A stretch of DNA of 42,438 nt from a virus, in the IMG/VR virus record IMGVR_UViG_3300022221_000003, positions 1 to 42,438 of that record; one strand, written 5' to 3'. How positions within the stretch are numbered: position 1 is the first letter of the stretch; the number at the start of each line of letters is the position of its first letter. This document shows positions 2,992 to 38,181 of this stretch, piece after piece. The translations under genes were made by a program, and so were the position numbers. The notes under the pieces are model-generated. The model ran no database searches and was not told the origin of the DNA. It worked only from the letters and a program-made list of their open reading frames with translations.

Positions 2992-4077
2992 TTAAGCTAT
3001 TGACAGAGCCGCGTGTGCGTTACGTCTGTTGGTTGTAACACCACCGCGCCAAGTCAGGCCCCAATAGTACTCGTACTTATCATAAGTACGTGGTGGTTTA
3101 CGCACGATCATATCGTGACCATCCATTGGACGCAGCTTGAGGTGGCGCGTATTTATAAAGTAACAACGCTTTTCCCATGCTGGCCTTGAGGCTACTGGCT
3201 CACCGGATAATGCATCGAGATCCGCGAATGATGGTACCCAGATGATAGGCACTTTATTAAAGCGCATACCTGTATCCAAACCATCAGCACCGTTACCCAT
3301 TTCACCACTACCAACGTAATCAACACTGGAATAGTTTAAACGGCCATAGGTTCTCATCATAAAGTCCTGCAAACCATCCACAAAATCTGAGCCTGCATAG
3401 ATCTTGTCTGGACGACCACCATTACGCACACACGCACGCCATGCAGATCGCATACTGGACCAGATGGTGCCCACGGTTGTAGTGGTAGTAAGGCCAGTAG
3501 CCTTATGGTTGCGCCAGTATTCATTACCGGCTGTTGCTGAATTGATGCCGCCTACTGTATTCCAAGTAGCATCAATATTGATCAATGCATCAATACCATC
3601 AATGGCATCGGCATCTGTTGATCCATCTTGCCAGAGTGCTTGATCAAACTTTTCTTCAAAACCAAGGCGTAGCACCTCGTTTTCTTCATCAAGCAAATTG
3701 GTAAGCTGCATTACTTCCGCACGGCTGGCTGTCTTGGTTTTACCTTCAATCATGGTAATACCATTCTGGGCCAAACGATCTTCATCCAATGCAAAACCAT
3801 CATGTGCACTACGCCATGGGAATTTTGCTTGCTGCACTGTCTTACGCTTGTTGTACGTAACAGTCTTGGAGCCGTTAAACCATTGGAAATTGGATTGGTA
3901 CTGGTTGCGGATCTGCTCCACAACATACTCTTTAGCACCGGGGAATGACTTTTTACCCTTGTTCAGATCCTTGAGTAACGCTCTCTCAATGGCGACCTGA
4001 TCTACCGGGTTATTCTTGACGTAAAAATCAAGTGAAGTCATACCGGCAGTGGATATCTCATCTGCTGTAAATGGCAT
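2992..4077 (-). CDS. Major capsid protein (HK97-like fold expected)
   Basis: This 361-residue product starts at the ATG at 4077 (MPFTADEISTAG) with an AAGGAAA ribosome site. An upstream in-frame codon at 4098 would add seven residues but has a poorer site. The protein has the look of a capsid subunit: an N-terminal helix-rich arm, a long central region with KYAGSDF-like RPDKIYAGSDFVDGLQDFM, YGRLNYSSVDYVGSGEMGN, and a C-terminal beta strand run (YYWGLTWRGGVTTNRRNAHA). Order and size fit, lying directly after the scaffold gene with portal and terminase upstream. The 133-nt leader before it contains the four-hairpin array, so its expression is probably regulated separately from the scaffold. Confidence 0.85.
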   Translation of the reverse strand: MPFTADEISTAGMTSLDFYVKNNPVDQVAIERALLKDLNKGKKSFPGAKEYVVEQIRNQYQSNFQWFNGSKTVTYNKRKTVQQAKFPWRSAHDGFALDEDRLAQNGITMIEGKTKTASRAEVMQLTNLLDEENEVLRLGFEEKFDQALWQDGSTDADAIDGIDALINIDATWNTVGGINSATAGNEYWRNHKATGLTTTTTVGTIWSSMRSAWRACVRNGGRPDKIYAGSDFVDGLQDFMMRTYGRLNYSSVDYVGSGEMGNGADGLDTGMRFNKVPIIWVPSFADLDALSGEPVASRPAWEKRCYFINTRHLKLRPMDGHDMIVRKPPRTYDKYEYYWGLTWRGGVTTNRRNAHAALSIA

Positions 4078-4107
4078 GATTATGTTTCCTTCTGTCAAAT
4101 TAACCGT

Positions 4108-4201
4108 GGATGATGAGTCCGTTTACAATCGGTTAGGTGACGAGCCTAGAAACAGTCATGCCATGACGAGTAGCGATCCAGTCTGCCGGTGATGAGGCGG
4201 C
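4108..4201 (-). ncRNA. Tandem four-hairpin RNA array in the capsid leader (unrecognised)
   Basis: In the minus-strand transcript the heptamer CTCRTCA occurs four times, at 4196-4190, 4170-4164, 4144-4138 and 4117-4111, so 26, 26 and 27 nt apart. Each copy is flanked by an inverted repeat of different sequence. In transcription order the stems are GCCG/CGGC (with one unpaired C on each side of the loop), GCTA/TGGC, TAGG/CCTA and GGA/TCC. Pairing is thus kept while the stem bases change, and the second stem needs a G-U pair that exists only in the minus-strand RNA. Linkers share GAYTG in three units. I do not know this motif. The array starts 10 nt after the scaffold stop and ends 30 nt before the capsid ATG, so control of capsid translation or of mRNA stability is the natural guess. 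Confidence 0.6.
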
Positions 4202-4210
4202 TTACATCAG

Positions 4211-5323
4211 TTACAAACCGAGGGCTGCTGTAATAGCTTCCTCTGATGATTGGGGTTCACCTTTACCGCCAGTGCCTCCCGATCTCAAGGGTCTTTTCTT
4301 ACCCTTGTTTGTAGTATCAGTTTTTGTACTCAACTTAATTAAATCATCAAGTGACTCATACTGGTTATTTATATAAGCGATCCATTGGCTGGGGTCAAGG
4401 TTATCCCTTGCATAAGCAGCTGCCTTGGCCAGATGTGGTGCTTTCTTCTCCCAGTCAAGATCATTTTTCTGCCATGTAGAAAGTTGGTTGAAGATCGTAT
4501 CTGCTGCAGTTTTCAGGCTTGTATTAAATTCCTGCTGCTTTTTATCTGCATTAACAGTAAATTCCTTGCGATCTGTTTCGTTCTGGCGGCGTATGCGTGA
4601 CCGTGCAGTTTCCATGGCAATCTCTTTGGTGATTCTAAGATCATCCACCTGCTGCTGTAGCTCTGGAAATTCGGACAGAATATCGTAGCCCGGTAACTCT
4701 GTGCCTGTGGCCTTGGCCAGCTGCTGGGCCATGCCATACAAATGCATGACCGCTTTCTCAGGCTCAAGATTGATCATGGTCAGGGTATCCAGTGCTGCTG
4801 CTATCTGGTCCGGGCTGCCCTTGGTATCTTGAAACTGCTGAGTAATGCCTTGTAGTGCATCCTGTAAGCCCTCAATGGTTGAGTCCTTTTCCTTGCTGAT
4901 AGTTACCAGTTTCTGGAAACGCACACTACCTTTTTCACTCAGATCATCAGGTACCTTGTAGGGATCATCATCTTTCTCAGGATCTTTTTCCGGGTCCTTC
5001 TCTGGATCTTTTTCTGGATCCTTCTCAGGGTCCTTGTCTGGATCTACTTCCGGGTCTTTCTCTGGATCCTTCTCAGGATCGGCATCGGGATCTACTTCCG
5101 GGTCTTTTTCTGGATCAGGGTCAGTCTCTGGGTCTGGATCATCCAAAGGCACATCACCATTTTCATTATGCTTGATACCCAGAGAATCTGCGATCACATC
5201 AGCTGATGCAGTAGTAGGGTTATCATCATCGGTGTCAGTGCCTGAGCCTCCACCCTGCGATCCTTCTGCGCCTGCTTCATTCTGGTACCCACTAAACCAT
5301 GGATATATAAATCTTATATTCAT
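4211..5323 (-). CDS. Scaffolding protein (capsid assembly), acidic with DPEK repeats
   Basis: This 370-residue product starts at an ATG with a GGGAG site. Residues 62-120 are a low-complexity acidic tract of repeated DPEK/DPEVDPD units. A long helical, coiled-coil-prone region follows (about 130-300, Glu/Lys/Gln-rich, with TARSRIRRQNETDRKEF), and the C-terminus is basic and glycine-rich with KGKKRPLRSGGTGGKG. Acidic N-part, long helices and a short basic tail match scaffolding proteins, whose basic C-terminus binds the coat. The position between the portal-side genes and the major capsid gene supports this. The repeat-coding DNA is a tandem of near-identical 12-bp units and may vary in number between relatives. 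Confidence 0.8.
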   Translation of the reverse strand: MNIRFIYPWFSGYQNEAGAEGSQGGGSGTDTDDDNPTTASADVIADSLGIKHNENGDVPLDDPDPETDPDPEKDPEVDPDADPEKDPEKDPEVDPDKDPEKDPEKDPEKDPEKDPEKDDDPYKVPDDLSEKGSVRFQKLVTISKEKDSTIEGLQDALQGITQQFQDTKGSPDQIAAALDTLTMINLEPEKAVMHLYGMAQQLAKATGTELPGYDILSEFPELQQQVDDLRITKEIAMETARSRIRRQNETDRKEFTVNADKKQQEFNTSLKTAADTIFNQLSTWQKNDLDWEKKAPHLAKAAAYARDNLDPSQWIAYINNQYESLDDLIKLSTKTDTTNKGKKRPLRSGGTGGKGEPQSSEEAITAALGL

Positions 5324-13657: not shown

Positions 13658-13946
13658 TTAACTCAGCTTCACGATTAGACATTAAGGTATGGGTGTGCTC
13701 CATAGAACAAAAACGCATTTCAATTACACCCATAATCTGAGCCATGGATTTTTCCCACATAGGACCATAACTTTTACCTTTCGATGCATGAGTTTGGATA
13801 GAGTTTTTAATATCCAAAAGATTTTTTTGTTCTGCATCGATCTCATTACGGGTATTTGCGATTGCCTTTAGTTCGTCCTGCACCACTTCTGGCAAGGTTT
13901 GATCTTGTCCACCTTCCTGCTTACCTTCTGCTACTGTCTCTTTCAT
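13641..13946 (-). CDS. Hypothetical helical protein (101 aa)
   Basis: Begins MKETVAEGKQEGGQDQTLPEVVQDELK after GAGGATATACGA. A helical middle (ANTRNEIDAEQKNLLDIKNSIQ) leads into MAQIMGVIEMRFCSMEHTHTL and an acidic end. Could be a small oligomeric protein; no family recognised. Confidence 0.6.
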   Translation of the reverse strand: MKETVAEGKQEGGQDQTLPEVVQDELKAIANTRNEIDAEQKNLLDIKNSIQTHASKGKSYGPMWEKSMAQIMGVIEMRFCSMEHTHTLMSNREAELSGEIE

Positions 13947-13961
13947 TCGTATATCCTCCAG

Positions 13962-14210
13962 TTAAAATAATGATGCCCACTTACTGGCTTGATTGGTGAT
14001 CATAATATTAAGCTCTGCTTTCAATTCATCCTCATCCAAACCAAAACGTGTGCCCTTTAATGATAAGCCACCGGGTCCAGTTACTTCATATTTACAAACC
14101 CGATCACCTGTTGATGGATCAGGCGTTACGTTAACGCGCACCTGCTCCAAAAATTCTGCTTGTTTTTTGAGATCTACTCTCCGAGGTTTCATTGGAGGTA
14201 GCGCACTCAT
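13962..14210 (-). CDS. Hypothetical protein (82 aa)
   Basis: Begins MSALPPMKPRRVDLKKQAEF and contains PSTGDRVCKYEVTGPGGL followed by a helical tail ending ITNQASKWASLF. The ATG overlaps the preceding stop as ATGA. It could be nucleic-acid binding because of its basic N-terminus; this is weak. Confidence 0.55.
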   Translation of the reverse strand: MSALPPMKPRRVDLKKQAEFLEQVRVNVTPDPSTGDRVCKYEVTGPGGLSLKGTRFGLDEDELKAELNIMITNQASKWASLF

Positions 14211-14479
14211 TGTTGCGGTTTCCCAGTTCTACCCCTGCGATCATTTCTTTTTGCAGGAGTAGATATTTTAATAGTTTCAGATCCTTCAACATCAGATCTG
14301 TATTGGTACCCGGTAAAATGAGGTAATGAATCTGCTGGTTTTAATTCATTATTTACAGGGATGTAACCTACTGGTTTGCCGGTGTCATTCAATGCCCAAA
14401 AAGCCAATTTAATATAGGTGGCTGTTTTCTCCTGTATAAATTCAGCGCACCACTTATCAGCGTATGTGATCGATTTCAA
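14207..14479 (-). CDS. Hypothetical protein (90 aa), TTG start
   Basis: The start is a TTG that overlaps the upstream stop as TTGA (14479), with GGCGGGATG in front. The protein has SITYADKWCAEFIQEKTATYI and LAFWALNDTGKPVGYIPVNNE, and a basic C-terminus with PAKRNDRRGRTGKPQQ. A basic tail of this kind often binds DNA. No family was recognised. Confidence 0.55.
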   Translation of the reverse strand: MKSITYADKWCAEFIQEKTATYIKLAFWALNDTGKPVGYIPVNNELKPADSLPHFTGYQYRSDVEGSETIKISTPAKRNDRRGRTGKPQQ

Positions 14480-16483: not shown

Positions 16484-16767
16484 AAAACCCCCTCCTTAAT
16501 CGCTTGCCATAACATCTTTGTTACCATTTCCCATTGTTCGGGCCATATAAACGGCTCATCATGTAGTTTGTTGTGGCACTCTCTACATAATGGCATTAAC
16601 GCATACCATGGGGCCTTTGATCCTACTGCTCCATTTTTATCAATCCCGATCAAGTGATGAGGATCTACTGGATGATTTCTACAAATAGCGCACGGTTGTT
16701 TTTTTATCCACTTCTCGTACTCAACCTCATTCTGACCATCTGATAAAATCTGACTTGATTGAATCAT
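16459..16767 (-). CDS. HNH-type nuclease-like protein
   Basis: The start is the ATG at 16767 (MIQSSQIL), with AAAGGAGTTGT just before it; a longer frame to 16842 would run back over the upstream gene. The 102 residues hold CAICRNHPVDPHHLIG (zinc ligands and a His pair) and LCRECHNKLHDE, an HNH/treble-clef nuclease pattern. It may cut branched or damaged DNA; small phage HNH proteins can also be homing or packaging nucleases. It overlaps the RusA start by 25 nt. Confidence 0.7.
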   Translation of the reverse strand: MIQSSQILSDGQNEVEYEKWIKKQPCAICRNHPVDPHHLIGIDKNGAVGSKAPWYALMPLCRECHNKLHDEPFIWPEQWEMVTKMLWQAIKEGVLCVVKKAN

Positions 16768-17254
16768 ACAACTCCTTTGCTTTCGGTTCGTGATCAAGTT
16801 CTGCGCGTGATTCGATACCACATAATGATCTAATATACTCACCCGCCAATACTGGTGTAATTACTTTACCCTCAAAGAATCGCTTATGCTTCTTTGTTGC
16901 AACTGCACCAAGATATCTCAGGAATAAAGGATCATTACATAATGCTGCTGCATTTTTAGATACCGGACCACCTTTTATTGCCTCGGCATGTTCACGCTGC
17001 TCAGTATTTACCGGGGTATCATCATCGGCAATTTCAACCAGCATCAGCACATAACGCTGGCCCTGTTTGTTTTTAGCTACGCGGTTCTTACCTCTAAACA
17101 CATCCAACTGATCAGGATCTGTAATTCTTAATTTTACAAACGGGCCACCTGCTGCCGTTTCCCCGTAATCGGCTAACTGCGCCTCCTCACAAAATGCAAG
17201 GTACGGTTTAAGATCTTCCAGTTTTTCCATTACCTCTGCTGCTTCATTACTCAT
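16727..17254 (-). CDS. Hypothetical phage protein (175 aa), ancillary DNA metabolism
   Basis: A helix-rich N-terminus (MSNEAAEVMEKLEDLKPYL) leads into AAGGPFVKLRITDPDQLDVF, KNKQGQRYVLMLVEIADDD, then a helical NAAALCNDPLFLRYLGAVA. I have seen proteins with this pattern next to HNH and RusA genes in phages, but the function is unknown. The ATG overlaps the stop of the upstream gene (ATGA) after AAAGGTGATGT. Confidence 0.65.
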   Translation of the reverse strand: MSNEAAEVMEKLEDLKPYLAFCEEAQLADYGETAAGGPFVKLRITDPDQLDVFRGKNRVAKNKQGQRYVLMLVEIADDDTPVNTEQREHAEAIKGGPVSKNAAALCNDPLFLRYLGAVATKKHKRFFEGKVITPVLAGEYIRSLCGIESRAELDHEPKAKELYDSIKSDFIRWSE

Positions 17255-27372: not shown

Positions 27373-28193
27373 TAAATCGCACCCCTTGCTGTCAGATAAG
27401 TTGTAACCCTGTTGTATAAATATGTAAGTTCTGAGTGAGACATACCACCACCGACACCCCACGCACTGTATTGATCTTGCGCTCCAAGTCCTGCTGACTC
27501 CAAAACAGAATCACCGTAATAATTTACATAACCACCAACCCAAACAGGATGAGTAACAAGATCAGTAACATATACGCGAGGTGCCGGATAAACATCGTCT
27601 GATGAAACTGAATAAGGGGTGCTGAATCCATCTTTAAACACTCTTACATCAGAGGATGATGTTCTCGATGATGCGGTAAAGCCTATATACGTACTTGCTG
27701 ATTTCACTACTGCCGATCCACCATGGTAAATAGTGTGTTCTGTTGCTGTGGCGTAGAATTGATAAATCATCTGCTTATCATCCCAATTGTAATCAAATGC
27801 CCCCATGATGTTCCGAGTATTGCCTGTATCAGCTTGTGTTCTACGGTAAAAAAACAGTGAGTTATCATCATCCTGATAAACTCCAGTAAAACTATCTATC
27901 CCGGTCTTGATAGCTTTGCCTGCTGCTGTTGTGAAACCCCTGTCTGCTACAAAAGCAGGGGTGCTGTATTTTGAGCTGTCGTGCGCGTTCCCGGTGATAT
28001 CAAGTAATGAATCTGCCTCATTATCATGGACCACATTTAACATTTCGATCAGATCCCAAACCCCATCCTCTTTAAGTCCGAGAATTAAATTTGAAATATC
28101 ATTTTTCTGATCTGTATCCGTGCTCGTCATTCTGCCCCAATGTGCTGCCACATCAGAATCAATACCGCCAAACATTCCGCAAGATAAAAACAT
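27372..28193 (-). CDS. Lectin-like (concanavalin/LamG-fold) tail tip protein
   Basis: The ATG at 28193 overlaps the fibre stop by one base. The 273 residues show a jellyroll lectin pattern: LLDITGNAHDSS, FTTAAGKAIKTGIDSFTGVY, SSDVRVFKDGF, and a closing GMSHSELTYLYNRVTTYLTARG. Such domains at the end of the fibre operon bind host surface sugars. It is probably the receptor-binding tip. No catalytic residues recognised. Confidence 0.65.
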   Translation of the reverse strand: MFLSCGMFGGIDSDVAAHWGRMTSTDTDQKNDISNLILGLKEDGVWDLIEMLNVVHDNEADSLLDITGNAHDSSKYSTPAFVADRGFTTAAGKAIKTGIDSFTGVYQDDDNSLFFYRRTQADTGNTRNIMGAFDYNWDDKQMIYQFYATATEHTIYHGGSAVVKSASTYIGFTASSRTSSSDVRVFKDGFSTPYSVSSDDVYPAPRVYVTDLVTHPVWVGGYVNYYGDSVLESAGLGAQDQYSAWGVGGGMSHSELTYLYNRVTTYLTARGAI

Positions 28194-29293
28194 TATGGCT
28201 GCACCACCATCATAGCGATCACATCTGTTTCTGCTGCGCCATAACAACGTAAACCCAACATTGATTTTTTGTTTGCTGTTATAGAGGCAGGCTTGTCTGT
28301 TAACCATACCCAGTTTGCAGGCCATGCTACGGTCACATCTGCACTATGCCCGGTGATCATTAAATCAATGGCCCTACCTTCTGCAAACCCGGTGGATGTA
28401 AAAGTGGTATTAGCTGTCAGTGATTTTGTCTGCATCAGTGCCCCGGCTAAATTGATCACGGTGCCGGTGCTCATATCAGCTACATTACCCTCTACGGCTG
28501 TTACTTCCAGCACCCCGGACAAGTTCATGTTTTCTGCTGTTGCATTACCTGTCAATGCTGGTGCGGCCAGTGGTGCAAGTGTGGGTGCCTGAGTGGTTGT
28601 TACATAACCCCACACTCTGGATGATGGTGCACCTTTAGATATCAATACACGCTCATCAGATGAGCCTGATTCTGTAGGTAATGTACTGGTACCATCAGTG
28701 CCTTGTGATGCCATTAACTCCCAGTACGCAGCATCAGTGGCAAATGTGGATGAGTCAGATGTGTGATCGGTTATACATATGTATGTGGATCCTGATTCCT
28801 CCACTACATCATTCACATAAAAATTAGTATCTACTACCCAAGATCCTTGCCACGTAAAAGCGGTACCGTCTGTGCCTTTCTGGGAAAGTTTTAGCCAATT
28901 AGTAGCATCATCTGCTGGCACTGTTGCGCCTGATGTGTGATCAGTAATACTTAAAAAAGACTCACCACCATTGGTTGCAACATCATTTACATTGTAATCA
29001 GTGCCGCTTGCTGACCATGCACCACGTAACACCCACACATTACTGCCGTTCAATGCACTGATTGCAGATATACACTCACCGGTCAATGCAGAGTAAGGCA
29101 CCACCCCGGCATTAATTAATGTATCAGCCCTTTGGATCAAGTTTAGGTTTGTAGTAATTTCACTGATCACTCTTTCGATATCATCAAACTCTGCATCTAG
29201 TTGTGCAGAGTCTTGTGTAACTCGACCACCTTTATTGGTGTTCTCATCATCAGTAAAATCACCTTGTCTTGCATAATCTGTTGGTGCTGTCAT
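28193..29293 (-). CDS. Tail fibre protein with two carbohydrate-binding-like repeats
   Basis: This 366-residue product begins MTAPTDYARQGDFTDDENTN, a likely virion-anchoring domain followed by a coiled-coil stretch (TQDSAQLDAEFDDIERVIS). Residues ~85-185 hold two repeats of a WXGXW..YXVNDVV..G..Y..ITDHTS pattern (first AWSASGTDYNVNDVA, second SWVVDTNFYVNDVV), like a carbohydrate-binding module. The C-terminus is beta-rich. The ATG overlaps the giant gene's stop as ATGA. Confidence 0.75.
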   Translation of the reverse strand: MTAPTDYARQGDFTDDENTNKGGRVTQDSAQLDAEFDDIERVISEITTNLNLIQRADTLINAGVVPYSALTGECISAISALNGSNVWVLRGAWSASGTDYNVNDVATNGGESFLSITDHTSGATVPADDATNWLKLSQKGTDGTAFTWQGSWVVDTNFYVNDVVEESGSTYICITDHTSDSSTFATDAAYWELMASQGTDGTSTLPTESGSSDERVLISKGAPSSRVWGYVTTTQAPTLAPLAAPALTGNATAENMNLSGVLEVTAVEGNVADMSTGTVINLAGALMQTKSLTANTTFTSTGFAEGRAIDLMITGHSADVTVAWPANWVWLTDKPASITANKKSMLGLRCYGAAETDVIAMMVVQP

Positions 29294-32200
29294 GGCTTAC
29301 TCCCTAAATTCATGTTGTAAATTTTCACCGCTTCTTTCATGCCTTTCTTATTGGCATCAATCAGCTTTTGTTTTATGGCTGGCGTTAACCTCTTATCATT
29401 ACGTATGCGCTTATTGTCCTTTCTGTACTCTGACAATATTTTAGCACCTGCCTCTGCCACTGGTTTTTCAAATGAGGTTAGATCATCAAGCCCATCCAGA
29501 TAATCCATATCATAATCTAAAAACTTCCACGTGTTTTGCTCGGTCCTCATCTTGTCCAGTTTTTCATAAAACTCTGTCATGTGCCTTGTGCTGCTACGAT
29601 GTGGATCAGACACAAACCTTTTAATGACTGGCATCTGGTACCAATGCCGTGATGGTAACTGCGCCTCATCAGCCAACCATGTAAACGGCTGCTCTGATGC
29701 CATTAACCCATACGTGGCCAATGTACCAAACAAACCACGGACAGAGTGATCCAGTTTGTATGGTGACATACCAGTAGCCTCTCCCAGCTTACGTGAAAAC
29801 ATAGAGGTACCAGATCCATATTGGTACCGTGACTCTATATTTTCCATGCTCTCTGGCACAATATTCCTCTCAGTAAAGGTGCTGTGGTTTGACCATAATT
29901 CAATCGGTAGTATTGCTACTGTAGGGGTCATTCTTAAACCGAAAACATCCTCTAATGTTGATGTAAATCGTTTCATGGCTTTCCTGCCTGCATCATCAGC
30001 ATCTTTTAATGAGTCCTCCACGTACTCAAAAAACGCCTCAAAGAATGATCCAAACACTGCACCATACTCAAATGGTTTAGGGATCCTTACCGGGATAACA
30101 TCATCCTTGTCAGTCCTGAGTCCAATATCAAAATGCCAATATGTATTTTTCTCCCAGTCCTCTATATCTTTGTACCACTCTTTATCACGGTTCTGCAGCC
30201 ATAATAAAAGTGTAAGGGCAGTTAAGGCACTACCACGCGCTAATGTAAGAGCACCTTGATCACCAAAAGTACGAGTCATTTTATACAGCCCCTGTTTTGC
30301 AGGGTTAAGGAATGGCGTGATCCTTTCCAGTATGCGAATAGTTTTTGATGCGCCATGCATACCAAAGTCCACGGATATCTCACGGCCCTCAAGTGTTGAT
30401 AAGATCGCGTTATCCACATCCTCATCAAATGTGTTTTCCATGGCTTTCAATCTGGTACCAGACTCTGAGATAGTGCCTAATTTTCTCAACCACCGGCCCA
30501 CGTTCAACGGATTTAATACAGTGCCCGGTCTAAACTTACCAATAGTCTCCAGTCTTTCAAGCGTGGCTTTTTCTTCTTTGGATCCACTATGCCAAAAATC
30601 AGCATTAGCACCACCCAATGCACGATACATTTTATAAGACTCTGATGTAGTGGCTGCCTGTTTCATTCCCTGCGCGGTTGATAGCACCGGGATCATGGTG
30701 TTGCCTTTCTTGGCCTGAACAAACCCAGAGAATGTATCACGCATAAAATTGGCAGCCATAAAGTCTGGTGATAACACGATCCCAGTCCTTAATGTGCCTG
30801 CCGGGATTGCTGCAATATCAGTAACCAAACCTAACTCCATGGGAGCAAATGCGTGTAATGACTTCCAAAAATCCGCATTGTTTATTTTAATAGCAGCGTT
30901 TTTACCATCTACTTTTATAATAACAATCTTATTTTTCTCATCACCTATCGGCTTGTTCTGGAAATAAGTTTGCATGATCGCAATATCGCCAGCTGATGAT
31001 GGATCAATCTTTACACCCTGCTCTGATAACCCCTCGATCACCCTGTCGCTTGATACCTTTAACATTTGCATAGGCATCTTAACTTTTTCTACCCATGCTT
31101 TACCGTCCTCATGCAATTCTGATAATTGGTATGCTTTTATAAGTACAGCATTACGGTTAACCGCGTGAATTATATTGGCTGTGTTTTCCATGATGTTCAG
31201 AATAGGATCCTTAATATTCTGTTTACCACCTGTGAGCCTTTTGAATACTCCACCTTTACGCTTGCCGCCTACATCACCCTCATGCTCTGCCTCACGGAAA
31301 AATGGAACGTAATATGAATAGCGTTTTAATTGTTCTGCTGTTTCAGTAGATAAAAATCCACCGTCCACTGCGTACTGCATCAGGCTGTCATTATATTTGT
31401 AAAGTTCTGATGCAGCCTTTGTAAAGGTTTCATTTTCAAAACCTAACCCCTCGGCAATATCCTCATCATTAAATAGATTTTCCTTGCCAACCTCTTTCAA
31501 TTCCTGCGCGTGTTTTGCAATAACGTAAGCCTTAAACTCATCAAACGTCTGGGTATCAACCATTACAGGTTCAAGTATTGCCCTGAGTGATTTACCCCAT
31601 TTCTTTTGGATACGGTCCTCCAGCTTATAAGGCACGGTACCCTCTGTGCCTTTACCGCCTAACCCGATCCAGTCCTCTATTGCCGCAGAGTCACCAGATA
31701 AAAGCCTCCATGCAAAATATGGATTTTCAGATGCAGGCATATCAGGAGCCACGTTATCAACCATGTTTCTCAATGGTAGGCCAGCATCCAGAATTTCATG
31801 CACAAACATTTCCTGTAATCTACGGTAAGTTTTTACAGGCTGCTTGAGTGCTTTCTTAACATCAGACAGTGGGCCGGTTTCCTTGCCAACCTTTTTCATT
31901 ATCTTTGGTTTTCTCTTACGTTTAAACATTGGCTGGCCTTCCAATGCTGCATCACGCATTTGATCGGTCACATCAATGGAGTGCACCTTTGATCCGATCA
32001 GTTTTTTCATTTCATCATGGATATATTTACTAGCATCCTTGTGTGAGTCAAAAGGTATGGATTCTCCAGTGAGTTCATTTTCTACTGAAACACTATCATC
32101 AAGATCTATAAGTGTAGAGAATGGGATCCCTTCAAGTCCGTTTTCTCTTAACTCTCCCATGGTGAATGAGTTAACACCTTCCTCCTGTGTAGATATCTTT

Positions 32201-35200
32201 GTCTCACCAACTTTACCACCCCATTTTTTAATATACTTGTTAACGCTCTTGACAAGTTTGTTATCGTAAAAACCTTTCATACCGGATCCACCGATCTCCA
32301 AACCATCACCTTTTAATACTCTTGGATCGTTTTCTGGTGATAGATCTGTGTACTCAATGTTTCCATTTTCCATAACTCTTGTTGCGGTTTCTTTGTCTGG
32401 AAAAGATCCGTGTGCAGAGCCATTTTGATAATACACATACCAACCACTGCTCTCTTTTTTCCATGATTCCATAAATTCCTTTTCTCTTTGTTCGCCAATA
32501 ACTGCATCCTTGTAAACGAGATCATACCGGTTTCCAATATTCTTACTCTGCACCACCTCTGCATCTGCTGTATTAAATACCTCTACGCCAAAACCTCTTT
32601 TTCTAATAAAAGCAGTATGGCTATCAGGATCGATCTCACCTTCACGATTGATAATTTTCTCGGCCATTTCTTTACCGACAAGCTCTATAAGATTATCCTT
32701 AGTTAAATTAGTTTTGCTAATGGTGTCCATCCCTTCTTTGGGGGCCACTCTGAGATCGTAAGTTCCATCACTATTTTTTTTGTGATTGATAGACTCTACT
32801 TGGGTGCTTAAGCTCCATCTTTCGTTTTGCTGTTTTCCGGTTGTCCATGCAATACGATCAAACCCGTTCTCTGTTGCGTAGCGGATCATGCGTTTCATGG
32901 CTGGCATGTGCCATGTTTGTTTAAATACGGTGTCTTGCACCTTTCCATCTTTGTTATAAGCGTACTTTGCGACTACTTCTAAATACTTGTTTATGTATTC
33001 AACCTCACCCGGCATAAAATCTGTTGTATCCCATGTCTCACTCCACGGCACACTATTCCTTTCATTGTGATGTTTTATTGTTTGTAACGCTTGGTATGAT
33101 GAGTCAAAACCTAGATCGTTATACCTGCTTAAAATACGTTTTGATTCGTTATGTAATTTTTTCCTTTCTGCATTAGAAATTCCACCCTCATCATTTTTAT
33201 AACCTCTAGATCTTCCTTCTTGATGCCAGTCAGATTGAATCTCCTCAATGAATAAAACGCTCTTACCTTCGTTATCGGTACGCTCATTAAACCGTACCCA
33301 TACCTGAATATCTGCATCAGGGTAGTGAGCATCATGGCCGTAAAACTTATTGGCATCAGCGTTGCTGGGCTTCTTCTTTTCAATGATATATTGTTTTGCT
33401 GACTCCTGAGTAGAGTAATCTGACTTTAATATCTGATATACATTATCATCGGTTTTAAAATACCAAAACCTTTCAGGCGAGCTGTAACCACTGTGATCAT
33501 CCAAACTATTTATTGGGATCACGTTATCCTCATTGTAAGGAGGCACCGCTTCCTTTGATGGTGTTATCAATAACAACTCTTTGTAATTTTCACTCTCACC
33601 ACCAAGAACATACCTACCATGCTTAGGTGATTCTGTTGAAGCATAATCAGCTTCATCAAGACTACCAACATCAATACCTAAGTATTCCAGCCTTTGTGCA
33701 TGGGTGAGTTCATCTGCCAAACGTATTGATTTATTTTGTATTCTGTTTTCTGTAAAACCCATTTCAGACTCGTAAATTTTATCGCCATTAATATCTTTTA
33801 GATATTCACCGTTCTCATCTTTAATCAAATAATAACCATCATCATCACGCTCAATATTAAAAGATTTCATTTTCTGTTTAACATATTGTCGTCTTGACCA
33901 CTTCCTACCGTACTTAGGAGTTTCTAATATTTTTTCCTCGATCTTGATATCGTTCTGATCAATAAACTCAAGCACATCCTGTTTGGTTACTTTTCCATCC
34001 TGTTCATTTAACCAGTCTGCAATACCAACCCACTCCAGCTGCTCATTACTCAGTCCGGGTTTTGGTGATAGATCGCCTGTCTTTTTATGACGGTTAAATA
34101 TCTGGGATATCCAGTCTCTGGGCAATAATGCTTTTGCATTAATGTTCTGCACGTGCTTTTTAAGGTTTGAGAAAAACACATCTTTTTTACGTTGTAACAT
34201 TGTACTGTGTGCTACTTCACTCACAACATCCTGATCGGTTTGCGCCTTACTGGTTTTGCCTTTATCCACCACCTCACGCGCAGCCTTGGCCAGCATGGTG
34301 CGGATCTCCTGTTCGTTGACAGTATTGATCCATGATCCTTTGAAATTGTTTTTACGTAACCACTGCTTAAACCAAACAATAAAGCGATCAAGTAAACCGG
34401 ATTTCTCGCCTGACTCAATAACCTCTACAAGTCGCTCCTCGATTGCCAACTTACGATCACCGGGTTTTGTTAAATCAAAACCATAGTTCTCGGCAATATC
34501 AGTAAATTCATTTTTACCATATGCTGACCATGCATCTTGTAGAAAATCATTAAAGTCTGTACCAAAGAATTGACGTAAGGCCCAATGGCCACGCACCTCA
34601 TGGATGATCGCGGCATAGGCTTCACTTTCAGAATGAATATTATTGGCAATAAGATAAACGGTACCATCGGCACCATTGGTATCTTTTTTGGGATCGAATA
34701 TTGCAGCTACATCTGACTCATCATTGTTATCAACTAAACGCTGATACAGATGTGGTGGTAGGTCCTCAATGGATTGAACGATCTTTGTTTCAGGTAAGGC
34801 TTTCCACTTATTAATTACCGGGTCAATTACCCGGTGCACATCAGTTAGTGACAGGCTGCCTGTTTTTGCTTTCTTGGTTTTCTTATAGAGAATCTTTTGC
34901 AGGCTCTCCTGATCTGCAAAGGTGCCCATAAGATCAGGGTCCATAGCAAGCCTCTGGCCGCCTCCTTCCAGTATCTTCTCACGGATCCTTGTAGGCTGTT
35001 CGGTCTGCTCCAGTATAAATTTTTCCAGCCCTTCGGTGTTGTCCTGTTGTAAAATGGATCGGGTAATAATCGCCCTTTTAGCCGTAGTATTCCCCACGCC
35101 ACGCTCAAAGAGTCCGTGATCCTTAACAACCTTTCCGAGATCAATTTCTTTATTCTGTTCATTTAAAAATTTACCGTTTTCATATCGGTATTGTTTTAAT

Positions 35201-38181
35201 ACCGGTGCCCTTCTCATTGTCAGGTTTGCAGCACTCAGCAACAAACCAGTTAAATTTATTTCACCATACTTTTCCTGTGAAGCACTGGGCATCTTTTCAA
35301 TACCCGGTATCCATAATGCTTTTTGTATTCCTTCCAGCTTGCTCATTACTGCAGCATTTGGATCTGCTGGCATTACATTCTCATCACCCAGTCTGGTGTA
35401 ATCATCCTCAGACAGTAACCCGGTGTACTGGGTAGGCTCTGGCATCACGTGCTTATCGGTACCATGACGCAAAATACTTGAGATCATGGCCTCTGTTCTA
35501 CGCAGCCTGTTTACTGTAGTCAGGCCACGGGAATCAGGCTTTAATGTCTTGCCGTTGTTATAGGCATATGTCATGGCCATTTGATAGGCCACCGCCCCAC
35601 CTATTCCAGAGTCAACATCAGGGGTAATACTTACCCATGGATGCTCTGTATTGTGATCGTAGATTTTTGCTACATGGATCCACGACTCACCTAAATCATC
35701 ATTAAAATCATGCTGCTTTCTGATTTCAATATACTGACCACGATCATCTGTTTGGTCAGGTACGGCCTCCCAGTCTTTGCCGCCAATGTCCTGAGCAATC
35801 TGTGCCGGGTCACTTGCTGATGAGGTTTTGTTCTGGAAATTGTCAGGATTGCTGCCAATTTCTTTATAGGCATTTACTAATGAAGCACCCCTGCGCTTAT
35901 AGGCAGGGGTATCATCATCTACCCGGCTTTGCGGTGATCCGTGGTCATTATCAGGCCCTGACCGTTCATTGGGTCCTCCTGTTCCACTGCGATCCCCTTG
36001 AGGTGATCCCTTGATAGGTGAATTTCGTCCAGACCGTCCGGGGATCTCAGGATTCTGCCCTCGATAAGCTGCCAACCCTTCTGCCCTAGTTGCTCCACCA
36101 ATAAAGTCTCCGCGCCCTTCGACTGTTTGTAACCTGCCATTGTGCTTTCTCCTGACACTTAATATCTGCTCAGATACCGCGCCATAGTTCTCATGATCGT
36201 CATTATAGACGAAAACCCGTACACCGTCCTGTGTTTTCTTAATGGTCCTATAAATGACTCCTGACTCATCTAATGAGGCCCTGATTTCCTTGGTGGTAAC
36301 ACCCGGCACATCCAATACAAACAGGGCCTTATCTCCATTATCGGCACGGTTAAACCATATAATAGCTTTTTGATGCATTGATGCACCCATTTCAGATGCG
36401 GCATTTTTCAGAGTCTCCTCATCAGCCTTGGGCATCCACACTGCAAAGGTGTCCTCTGCACCATCCTCCCAGTCACCCACGGCACTTTCAATGACTGGCT
36501 CCACCCCATATTTCCGGGCAATATCCCTGACAACCTCCCGACCGCGCACGTGCTCATCAGATCGTACTGCTTTTTCAGCATCATCTAAGTTGGTGTTTTC
36601 CTTGATGTTTGGGCTTACAAAAGCTGCCGGGATATCAGACACATCATCTGGGCCGGTATCATCTTTACGGCCCTGCATTTCATCCAGTAGATCAATCGCC
36701 TGATCAGTGATTGGCGGTTTCTGTTGCTCAGGCTGCTCTGTAGCCTGTTCTGGCGGCACAAATCCAGCCTCTGTCAGTTTGTCGTGGATATCCTGCGGCA
36801 CGCTGTCGGGCTTACTCACGGGTTTCTGTTGCCCGGTAGTAGCCTGTGCTGCTGGTGGGCCAACCTGCTCACCGTGCACCGTATCCTGTGGATCTACTGT
36901 GTTGGCATCATAATTCTCAGGGGTAAATAGAGCCGCTATATCCTCTGCTGTTTTCGGCGCAAAATCTTTTCCAGATAATTCATCCCCCATAGCCCCGCCC
37001 ATTTTTTGGCCTTTCGTAAATCGTGGTGGGTTTGTAAATGGGTAAGTGGCTGCTTTAATGCTTCCGCCTGATACACCACCAACTGTACCGGCAAAAGCTA
37101 CTCTGTCTACTATTTCTGAGGTGGTAGGTTTCTTACCCTCTACCAGATACTCACGGGTAATATCAGCTATCTCAACTGTCATTTCCTGTACTGCTTCTGC
37201 TCCAGTGGATTTAAGTAAATCTATAAGCAGCCCCCCTCCTTCTCTGGTTAAAATACCTAAAGGGGTTAGTTCGGTAATCGCCTCCATAAAAGCACCAAAA
37301 TCAGCCTTCTCTGCTGCTTGGTGCTCATTCATTCCTTCTCGTATTGACTCGTCATATATCCGCCCCCTGATTGTTGCCGCTATAGTTGCGGCACCGACCA
37401 TAGGATCTTTTTTGATCATTGACATTATGACAGAGGGACCAAAAGATGATCCGACACCTTCTATCGTTGCATTGGCAATATGCTTACCACTCCACGGCTC
37501 CAGATTGAGCCTGTTTTGTTGGTACTTGCCATGCCAGTGATCGGATACGGTTTTACCCATATCACCAACCATGTTACGGACAATAGATAAAGGATCGTTT
37601 TCATTTACAGGCATATCATGTGTTTTGTTTTTTAGCCCGTGGTATGCGCCTGCATAATCTTTATTCCTGATCATTTTAGCTATTGCTGGTGATACGCTGC
37701 CGTTCATGGTTGCGTCTGTTAGTTTTCCAAAAGCATCACCCTGATCATAAATAGATATTATCTTTTGCATTACTCCGTGATCAGAGAAAGTGGTATCCAT
37801 CTGCATAGAGTTCAATGCTTCGATCAATTCATTTCTTTCAATCTCACGGGCATCACCAAACCTATTCATTTCGCCACCAATGTTTTGTCCAACAAGATAC
37901 CCAATATTCTGAGTAGATTTTCCTAATAGCTCAGGGATGCCGGGATTGTCATACATTGGCTGTTTAGTTGGATCAGGCATACCTGCCGATATGTCTTGCA
38001 GCATTTTCATTTCGTTCTGGATGTTTGGCTGTGCTTGGATGCCTTGCAACATTCCATCGGTAGCCTTGTTAGTAAGTTGTGGGGCTATTTCAGTTTCAAT
38101 AGCCTGAGTGATTTCATCCGGTGACATATCATCCGGGAAATCAATCTCCTCACCAAACTCCTCAAGGTAAACACTCGGCAT
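29290..38181 (-). CDS. Giant virion polyvalent protein (2963 aa), ejected with DNA
   Basis: One continuous frame of 8.9 kb. The N-terminus (VYLEEFGEEIDFPDDMSPDEI) is a motif of large phage virion proteins. Residues ~240-345 hold hydrophobic, glycine-rich segments that could cross a membrane. About 425-500 and 710-755 are Pro/Gln/Gly-rich linkers. Near 1193-1198 is HEVRGH followed by an acidic helix, a zinc-metallopeptidase motif (MPTase-polyVal type). At about 1643-1660 is EEIQSDWHQEGRSRGY, a conserved block of large polyvalent proteins. At 2110-2300 another helical domain, and about 2665-2720 an LPD38-like region (NTYWHFDIGL, RIPKPFEYG). It probably enters the host with the DNA, as in Bcep22-like podoviruses. 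It starts by TAATG overlap with the 365-residue gene. Confidence 0.8.
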   Translation of the reverse strand: MPSVYLEEFGEEIDFPDDMSPDEITQAIETEIAPQLTNKATDGMLQGIQAQPNIQNEMKMLQDISAGMPDPTKQPMYDNPGIPELLGKSTQNIGYLVGQNIGGEMNRFGDAREIERNELIEALNSMQMDTTFSDHGVMQKIISIYDQGDAFGKLTDATMNGSVSPAIAKMIRNKDYAGAYHGLKNKTHDMPVNENDPLSIVRNMVGDMGKTVSDHWHGKYQQNRLNLEPWSGKHIANATIEGVGSSFGPSVIMSMIKKDPMVGAATIAATIRGRIYDESIREGMNEHQAAEKADFGAFMEAITELTPLGILTREGGGLLIDLLKSTGAEAVQEMTVEIADITREYLVEGKKPTTSEIVDRVAFAGTVGGVSGGSIKAATYPFTNPPRFTKGQKMGGAMGDELSGKDFAPKTAEDIAALFTPENYDANTVDPQDTVHGEQVGPPAAQATTGQQKPVSKPDSVPQDIHDKLTEAGFVPPEQATEQPEQQKPPITDQAIDLLDEMQGRKDDTGPDDVSDIPAAFVSPNIKENTNLDDAEKAVRSDEHVRGREVVRDIARKYGVEPVIESAVGDWEDGAEDTFAVWMPKADEETLKNAASEMGASMHQKAIIWFNRADNGDKALFVLDVPGVTTKEIRASLDESGVIYRTIKKTQDGVRVFVYNDDHENYGAVSEQILSVRRKHNGRLQTVEGRGDFIGGATRAEGLAAYRGQNPEIPGRSGRNSPIKGSPQGDRSGTGGPNERSGPDNDHGSPQSRVDDDTPAYKRRGASLVNAYKEIGSNPDNFQNKTSSASDPAQIAQDIGGKDWEAVPDQTDDRGQYIEIRKQHDFNDDLGESWIHVAKIYDHNTEHPWVSITPDVDSGIGGAVAYQMAMTYAYNNGKTLKPDSRGLTTVNRLRRTEAMISSILRHGTDKHVMPEPTQYTGLLSEDDYTRLGDENVMPADPNAAVMSKLEGIQKALWIPGIEKMPSASQEKYGEINLTGLLLSAANLTMRRAPVLKQYRYENGKFLNEQNKEIDLGKVVKDHGLFERGVGNTTAKRAIITRSILQQDNTEGLEKFILEQTEQPTRIREKILEGGGQRLAMDPDLMGTFADQESLQKILYKKTKKAKTGSLSLTDVHRVIDPVINKWKALPETKIVQSIEDLPPHLYQRLVDNNDESDVAAIFDPKKDTNGADGTVYLIANNIHSESEAYAAIIHEVRGHWALRQFFGTDFNDFLQDAWSAYGKNEFTDIAENYGFDLTKPGDRKLAIEERLVEVIESGEKSGLLDRFIVWFKQWLRKNNFKGSWINTVNEQEIRTMLAKAAREVVDKGKTSKAQTDQDVVSEVAHSTMLQRKKDVFFSNLKKHVQNINAKALLPRDWISQIFNRHKKTGDLSPKPGLSNEQLEWVGIADWLNEQDGKVTKQDVLEFIDQNDIKIEEKILETPKYGRKWSRRQYVKQKMKSFNIERDDDGYYLIKDENGEYLKDINGDKIYESEMGFTENRIQNKSIRLADELTHAQRLEYLGIDVGSLDEADYASTESPKHGRYVLGGESENYKELLLITPSKEAVPPYNEDNVIPINSLDDHSGYSSPERFWYFKTDDNVYQILKSDYSTQESAKQYIIEKKKPSNADANKFYGHDAHYPDADIQVWVRFNERTDNEGKSVLFIEEIQSDWHQEGRSRGYKNDEGGISNAERKKLHNESKRILSRYNDLGFDSSYQALQTIKHHNERNSVPWSETWDTTDFMPGEVEYINKYLEVVAKYAYNKDGKVQDTVFKQTWHMPAMKRMIRYATENGFDRIAWTTGKQQNERWSLSTQVESINHKKNSDGTYDLRVAPKEGMDTISKTNLTKDNLIELVGKEMAEKIINREGEIDPDSHTAFIRKRGFGVEVFNTADAEVVQSKNIGNRYDLVYKDAVIGEQREKEFMESWKKESSGWYVYYQNGSAHGSFPDKETATRVMENGNIEYTDLSPENDPRVLKGDGLEIGGSGMKGFYDNKLVKSVNKYIKKWGGKVGETKISTQEEGVNSFTMGELRENGLEGIPFSTLIDLDDSVSVENELTGESIPFDSHKDASKYIHDEMKKLIGSKVHSIDVTDQMRDAALEGQPMFKRKRKPKIMKKVGKETGPLSDVKKALKQPVKTYRRLQEMFVHEILDAGLPLRNMVDNVAPDMPASENPYFAWRLLSGDSAAIEDWIGLGGKGTEGTVPYKLEDRIQKKWGKSLRAILEPVMVDTQTFDEFKAYVIAKHAQELKEVGKENLFNDEDIAEGLGFENETFTKAASELYKYNDSLMQYAVDGGFLSTETAEQLKRYSYYVPFFREAEHEGDVGGKRKGGVFKRLTGGKQNIKDPILNIMENTANIIHAVNRNAVLIKAYQLSELHEDGKAWVEKVKMPMQMLKVSSDRVIEGLSEQGVKIDPSSAGDIAIMQTYFQNKPIGDEKNKIVIIKVDGKNAAIKINNADFWKSLHAFAPMELGLVTDIAAIPAGTLRTGIVLSPDFMAANFMRDTFSGFVQAKKGNTMIPVLSTAQGMKQAATTSESYKMYRALGGANADFWHSGSKEEKATLERLETIGKFRPGTVLNPLNVGRWLRKLGTISESGTRLKAMENTFDEDVDNAILSTLEGREISVDFGMHGASKTIRILERITPFLNPAKQGLYKMTRTFGDQGALTLARGSALTALTLLLWLQNRDKEWYKDIEDWEKNTYWHFDIGLRTDKDDVIPVRIPKPFEYGAVFGSFFEAFFEYVEDSLKDADDAGRKAMKRFTSTLEDVFGLRMTPTVAILPIELWSNHSTFTERNIVPESMENIESRYQYGSGTSMFSRKLGEATGMSPYKLDHSVRGLFGTLATYGLMASEQPFTWLADEAQLPSRHWYQMPVIKRFVSDPHRSSTRHMTEFYEKLDKMRTEQNTWKFLDYDMDYLDGLDDLTSFEKPVAEAGAKILSEYRKDNKRIRNDKRLTPAIKQKLIDANKKGMKEAVKIYNMNLGSKP

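Follow-up and report, generated by a model that had tools for sequence, protein, structure and literature searches.

How tailed DNA phages set their large and balanced capsid output after transcription is largely unknown, and the locus described here raises the question of whether an RNA element in front of the capsid gene takes part in it. The window analyzed is a whole IMG/VR virus record of 42,438 bases. On its minus strand, an array of four similar loops lies between a putative scaffold gene and the gene for the major capsid protein (MCP). An earlier note, made from the letters of the window, had read the array as stem-loops that share one heptaloop and bind a protein or a small RNA. It recognized no known family, which agrees with our search of Rfam 15, where the window and 17 related loci had no match above the gathering threshold. 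The genes at the locus are as follows.

2992..4077, minus strand: MCP gene, putatively controlled by the array; 361 amino acids, ATG start at 4077
4087..4091, minus strand: Shine-Dalgarno sequence AAGGA of the MCP gene, read from the sequence
4211..5323, minus strand: putative scaffold gene, assigned by position and acidic composition

The MCP gene product matches the major head protein family PHROG 9953 (3.3e-36), and homologues of the scaffold gene were present in 34 of 34 records. The scaffold stop codon lies 2 nt ahead of the first unit of the array. About 50 residues of the putative scaffold protein (window 4970-5130) form a series of (D/E)(K)DP(E) repeats, and elsewhere in the window (29290-38181) there is a polyvalent protein of 2963 residues with LPD37 and LPD38 domains.

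Four loops in the window

The motif CTCRTCA occurs on the minus strand at 4190-4196, 4164-4170, 4138-4144 and 4111-4117, with the 26-, 26- and 27-nt spacing that had been described, and each copy is closed by a different stem, as the earlier note had also stated.

4201-4198 / 4188-4185, minus strand: unit 1 hairpin stem, GCCG/CGGC
4174-4171 / 4163-4160, minus strand: unit 2 hairpin stem, GCTA/TGGC
4148-4145 / 4137-4134, minus strand: unit 3 hairpin stem, TAGG/CCTA
4120-4118 / 4110-4108, minus strand: unit 4 hairpin stem, GGA/TCC, which lies inside the closed helix described below

Copy 1 differs in loop size: its loop has 9 nt (CCTCATCAC), which the stem closes across a C-C mismatch, and a counterpart of this unit (GATGTAAGCCGG..CATCA..CGGC) is present in the leaders of L047 and L015. 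The 7-mer CTCATCA/CTCGTCA is common in the window, with 43 copies on both strands versus 11 expected, a fourfold excess that falls mostly in genes. This excess is mostly antisense to coding sequence and probably reflects codon usage (GATGAG). Folding of the minus strand, which the earlier note had looked to as a check, gave a structure over 4078-4230 that was no better than those of shuffled sequences (z = -0.19), and hairpin 3 was missing from the minimum-energy fold. Because the 7-mer is common and the simple fold is ordinary, the case had to rest on comparison.

Hairpins are retained in related phages

MCP relatives were drawn from 52 IMG/VR loci and from up to 80 more with an alignment, among which most contigs recur. 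A total of seven bacterial contigs were added, from MAGs labelled Alpha-, Beta- and Gammaproteobacteria and Mariprofundus and from Roseateles depolymerans, whose culturable strain DSM 11813 carries the prophage L058. Pairing tests used a set of 65 non-redundant leaders with MCPs about 48 to 69% identical.

In most relatives the MCP leader carries one to four hairpins with the loop YTCRYCW, in units of 23 to 29 nt that lie 25 to 34 nt apart. Of 52 cores of the form YTCRYCH before related MCP genes, 40 had a closing stem of 4 bp or more, compared with 8.1±2.5 when flanks were re-dealt, a test that makes no selection for pairing. At other places in these loci the core showed no excess (39 of 457 stem-closed versus 32). 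Stem sequences vary freely among units yet stay paired. Two expectations of the earlier note, that the loop would recur before the capsid genes of relatives and that stems would change while still pairing, were thereby borne out. Its argument for the mRNA strand, drawn from a single G-U pair, did not hold up, with G-U and A-C cells about equally rare (9 versus 5 and 5 versus 6) and neither strand singled out by the counts; its reading of an RNA element on the mRNA strand, in a position suited to capsid control, is supported. A covariance model of single units was set aside: MAFFT placed loops of 7, 8 and 9 nt out of register, so permutation tests were used in its place.

The array is missing in AT-rich relatives such as L105, L122, L131 and L133. 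In the array-free loci L105, L117, L122 and L123, the last 45 nt before the MCP start contain a single hairpin whose loop includes GGA (AGGAT, ACGGAA), located just ahead of the Shine-Dalgarno sequence; the stems differ, and the hairpins resemble a CsrA site. No GGA-loop hairpin was found before the MCP gene in the other array-free relatives.

Loops pair with the linker upstream

The loop letters CRYC are complementary to a GRY(U)G linker immediately upstream of the same unit. Across the 65 leaders, 127 of 138 units carried an exact linker complement, compared with 51.8±5.2 when loops were permuted, and the downstream linker gave no pairing signal with the loop (21 versus 29). Permutation within leaders only, which takes out relatedness, left the result standing, with the own loop matched in 101 of 108 units versus 53.6±6.1. 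A linker matched the loop of another unit of its own leader in just 9 of 138 units. Loop variants CGTC, CGCC, CACC and CATC occur with linkers that change along with them (GAC(N)G or GACG, GGC, GGT and GAT, respectively), and a letter-free search added the pairing types CGCG/CGCG, AGCG/CGCT, GCCG/CGGC, GTCG/CGAC, GCTG/CAGC, GGAG/CTCC and AACG/CGTT. A bracketed count that included the crossing helices gave 99.1% paired cells (73.2±2.7 shuffled) and 28 double-change cells (versus 8.6), in a set that was picked for its geometry; the loop-permutation and within-leader tests are the neutral ones.

Since the order is 5' linker, stem, loop partner and stem, the arrangement is that of an H-type pseudoknot. 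Comparison of the leaders shows each unit as a small predicted pseudoknot of this type, in which the four 5'-edge nucleotides of NNN(U)G would pair with the loop letters CNNN of the next hairpin. All four units of the window fit the rule (GATG/CATC, GACTG/CGTC, GACTG/CGTC and GATTG/CATC); they are 23 to 24 nt long and spaced by 26 to 27 nt, with stems unrelated in sequence.

4185..4208, minus strand: pseudoknot unit 1; GATG 4208-4205 pairs with loop CATC 4194-4191
4160..4183, minus strand: pseudoknot unit 2; GAC(T)G 4183-4179 pairs with loop CGTC 4168-4165
4134..4157, minus strand: pseudoknot unit 3 (penultimate, switching unit); GAC(T)G 4157-4153 pairs with loop CGTC 4142-4139
4108..4130, minus strand: pseudoknot unit 4 (last); GAT(T)G 4130-4126 pairs with loop CATC 4115-4112

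The GAYTG shared by linkers, which the earlier note had pointed out, is thus real and corresponds to the pseudoknot partners of the loops. Conservation of the loop would then be due largely to pairing with its own upstream linker, and the covariation of the two is at odds with bare hairpins that present a protein site. A U before the paired loop letters is nearly constant (129 of 165) and would be compatible with a U-turn like that of an anticodon loop. The bridge from loop to 3' arm is 0 to 2 nt, which is short for a classical H-type pseudoknot. Among other candidates that we rejected, mimicry of a tRNA T-arm was judged by eye and the loop has no purine at the T-loop position, and a conserved DNA operator has no shared half-site because stems differ between all copies.

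A predicted competing helix over the capsid initiation region

Within one leader, the array region and the Shine-Dalgarno region are complementary to a degree well above that of permuted pairs (19.1 versus 15.67±0.32 and 18.4 versus 15.04±0.34). Duplex energy gave z = -11.0 for the penultimate-unit region with positions -26 to -5 and z = -15.5 for the whole array with positions -30 to +14; complementarity to the start codon itself was weakly above chance (z = -2.6). A strong duplex between array and Shine-Dalgarno region was found in 43 of 65 leaders, and in the other 22 it was under the threshold, weak or absent. Examples are GCCTCCGTGGT::ACCACGGAGGC in L040, GTCTCCTGTG::CACAGGAGAT in L042, CCTTAATTGG::TCAATTAAGG in L002, TCCTCGAT::ATCGAGGA in L064 and GCAAACGTG::CACGTTTGC in L098, and in one leader set RNAalifold returned, unprompted, a helix CCTCCG::CGGAGG that closes around the last hairpin. 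The 3' arm of a hairpin is used by 34 of the 43 strong duplexes, compared with 10.2 expected by random placement.

In the window, the closing helix can be laid out in two strands.

4130..4164, minus strand: closed helix, 5' strand; ATGGCATGA 4164-4156, TGTTTCT 4154-4148, CT 4144-4143, GTCA 4141-4138 and TAACCG 4135-4130
4071..4106, minus strand: closed helix, 3' strand; CGGTTA 4106-4101, TGAC 4097-4094, AG 4093-4092, GGAAACA 4089-4083 (over the Shine-Dalgarno sequence) and TCATGCCAT 4079-4071 (over the start codon)

Folded together with 17 nt of the MCP gene, the window leader reached a minimum energy of -41.2 kcal/mol (z = -2.39; 1 of 200 shuffles). The predicted closed fold is a long imperfect helix that uses the loop, 3' arm and following linker of unit 3, dismantles units 2 and 3, hides AAGGA and AUG, and leaves unit 4 in place at the tip. 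Across leaders the folding models, which leave pseudoknots out, gave a mean closing-helix probability of 0.82 where such a helix exists and a penultimate-hairpin probability of 0.15 where there are at least two hairpins. In leaders with at least three units, Shine-Dalgarno accessibility was 0.40 with the penultimate unit enforced versus 0.28 with either neighbor, a modest gain.

Comparison shows that in many relatives the predicted penultimate unit and the helix that closes the initiation region exclude each other. The Shine-Dalgarno sequence is covered in 23 of 65 leaders, and in others the helix ends just 5' of it. In about 12 leaders the helix ends upstream of the Shine-Dalgarno sequence and shares only about 2 nt with the penultimate stem, so exclusion is not strict everywhere. 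The helix from array to Shine-Dalgarno sequence and start (z = -15.5) had been overlooked by the earlier note.

The array is found almost exclusively before the capsid gene

We scanned both strands of the window and of 27 complete, near-complete or partial related genomes (2.1 Mb). Hairpin clusters were located at the MCP leader in 16 genomes, and the remainder were about as frequent as clusters in the reversed control. Clusters of at least three units by pseudoknot criteria lay in MCP leaders, apart from two inside scaffold genes (G005 and G032; control, 2). Judged from these genome sequences, the array would occur essentially only before the MCP gene. Scans of IMG/VR for the pattern at other genes or capsid families returned just known members or chance coding matches. 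An archaeal C/D-box RNA, another rejected candidate, was sub-threshold and, in the window, antisense (plus strand) only, and relatives are without the box letters.

The two scaffold-gene clusters consist of array-consensus units in the 5' coding part, at 14121-14220 in G032 (L193) and 16692-16784 in G005 (L149). The MCP leader of G032 is without an array, so the array may have moved; the control level is similar and chance is possible. In two other genomes, an inserted HNH endonuclease gene separates the array and its Shine-Dalgarno sequence from the MCP start (G001 [L140], 33972-34660; G006 [L151], 13711-14400). The array there now precedes the HNH gene, and the MCP start has its own ribosome-binding site. 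From one locus survey only, the insertion appears to be alike in L020, L023, L028 and L051.

Comparison with known leader elements

A pseudoknot in a phage mRNA, tens of nucleotides 5' of a start codon and acting on translation, is known from the gene 32 operator of T4, T2 and RB69 (PMC3014915, PMC535899). As of a 2010 review, it was perhaps the sole viral pseudoknot in translational autoregulation (PMC3014915). The window resembles it in having predicted pseudoknots of the H type in a phage gene leader. The gene 32 operator is a single pseudoknot before the gene of a replication protein (a single-stranded DNA-binding protein), confined to T4 relatives and with no competing Shine-Dalgarno helix reported, whereas here one to four tandem covarying units precede the MCP gene. 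The A+U-rich UUAA(A) repeats that lead from the gene 32 pseudoknot to the start have no counterpart here beyond one TTAA between unit 4 and the start.

Other systems share single aspects of the array. The lambda cIII mRNA can adopt two alternative leader structures that exclude each other, and in one of them the initiation region is hidden (Altuvia 1989, cited in PMC11182007). It resembles the array in these folds and differs in having no known tandem pseudoknots and in serving an early regulatory gene of a single phage group. Leaders of rpsO (S15) and the alpha operon (S4) also use pseudoknots to set translation initiation in Proteobacteria (PMC10931766). In those leaders a single complex pseudoknot takes in the ribosome-binding site, the genes are cellular, and repression is autogenous, by a known r-protein. 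In the present array, conserved and predicted exclusive helices of the riboswitch kind are found, one of them over the Shine-Dalgarno sequence in the 23 leaders above and partially overlapping in others.

The guanidine-II (mini-ykkC) riboswitch consists of tandem small hairpins with one shared loop sequence that control Shine-Dalgarno access; it has ACGR tetraloops, no known pseudoknot with an upstream linker, and a metabolite ligand. The array differs from it in its linker-paired loops and in having no Rfam match. In the open-access literature we found no pseudoknot in a phage capsid leader, and an earlier description elsewhere is possible.

A candidate translational switch and its alternatives

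Conservation of two helices that cannot form together, with one of the two covering the ribosome-binding site, makes the element look like an undescribed RNA switch for capsid production. We consider it probable (roughly 0.68) that the array is a cis-acting translational switch in the MCP mRNA leader. In the pseudoknot state the ribosome-binding site would be accessible (ON), and the closed helix would hide it (OFF); unaided, the closed helix would be the more stable, and the array would hold the open state either by forming first on nascent RNA or by being bound. The binder that we judge likeliest is the 30S subunit by way of protein S1, a lead taken from a review: S1 binds leaders 5' of the Shine-Dalgarno sequence, and pseudoknots are among its high-affinity targets (PMC10931766). 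Its generality in Proteobacteria adds to its appeal. The main alternative binder would be a capsid or scaffold protein that regulates capsid synthesis by feedback. Gene content in 22 array-bearing and 4 array-free genomes yielded no non-structural phage gene that tracks the array, so a phage factor is no likelier than a host factor or none at all. The sole window gene that does track it (28193-29293; 22 of 22 versus 0 of 4) is a predicted tail fibre with a carbohydrate-binding module 5/12 (Pfam PF02839); no candidate for a phage RNA-binding protein emerged from gene content.

Two rival explanations come next in likelihood. A kinetic switch without a ligand, in which pseudoknots on nascent RNA keep the site open and the finished mRNA refolds closed, so that only fresh transcripts are translated, is conceivable but rather unlikely. 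It fits a closing helix that requires the last-transcribed segment and is more stable than the units, and it accounts for conserved exclusive helices without a conserved binder, but it leaves the retention of several units further upstream unexplained, and the penultimate hairpin reached just 0.32 in the truncated transcript (nested folds only). We regard as unlikely an autogenous repressor site, at which the capsid or scaffold protein or the prohead would stop capsid synthesis when unassembled protein accumulates. The position directly before the MCP gene and essentially nowhere else is in its favor, the genes widely common to array-bearing genomes are, tail fibre aside, the head and tail module, and the T4 gene 32 leader pseudoknot bound by gp32 is a precedent (PMC3014915). 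Against this, homologous MCP and scaffold genes occur without the array in the four AT-rich relatives named above, neither protein has a visible RNA-binding domain, and binding to the penultimate unit should open the start site, not close it.

Three further explanations are less likely still. That plain hairpins offer one shared heptaloop to a protein or small RNA, as the earlier note proposed, is improbable: loop letters are kept across distant relatives, but they change with the upstream linker and are thus not a free invariant binding site, and the complement of the loop at the MCP start of the window (GATGAG), whose pairing with the loop we rejected, is lost in relatives. Tandem pseudoknots stop exonucleases elsewhere, as flavivirus xrRNA does, and by this likeness the array could be a 5'-end stabilizer or a processing site of the capsid mRNA (a nuclease block) with no role in initiation; we think this very improbable, as it leaves the covarying complementarity to the Shine-Dalgarno region unexplained. 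Least credible is a decoy that mimics a ToxI-like antitoxin and titrates a host type III toxin. Type III antitoxin RNAs (ToxI, antiQ) are indeed tandem H-type pseudoknots located ahead of a gene, and phages can amplify pseudo-ToxI (PMC5086642). Their repeats are near-identical 34- to 36-mers cut by the toxin, whereas units here differ within one array and measure 23 to 29 nt (23 to 24 nt with unrelated stems in the window); the array always lies ahead of one capsid gene, and the next gene in the window encodes the MCP instead of a ToxN-family endoribonuclease.

Returning to the translational switch, we advance one extension of it tentatively, with the odds somewhat against it as a whole. Tandem U-turn-like pseudoknots, with a loop NU-CNNN-W read by its own 5' linker in codon/anticodon style, could form a new family that acts as a multi-site sensor. 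The capsid start would be open only when the array is bound, and in a wide range of Proteobacteria phages capsid synthesis would thereby be coupled either to free 30S/S1 or to the amount of head protein not yet assembled.

The array is common to dozens of phages whose genomes otherwise share only structural genes. It is a compact RNA element, statistically solid, that ties pseudoknot arrays to access to the capsid start site. It may represent a modular part for translational control, and letter swaps between linker and loop make direct test mutants.
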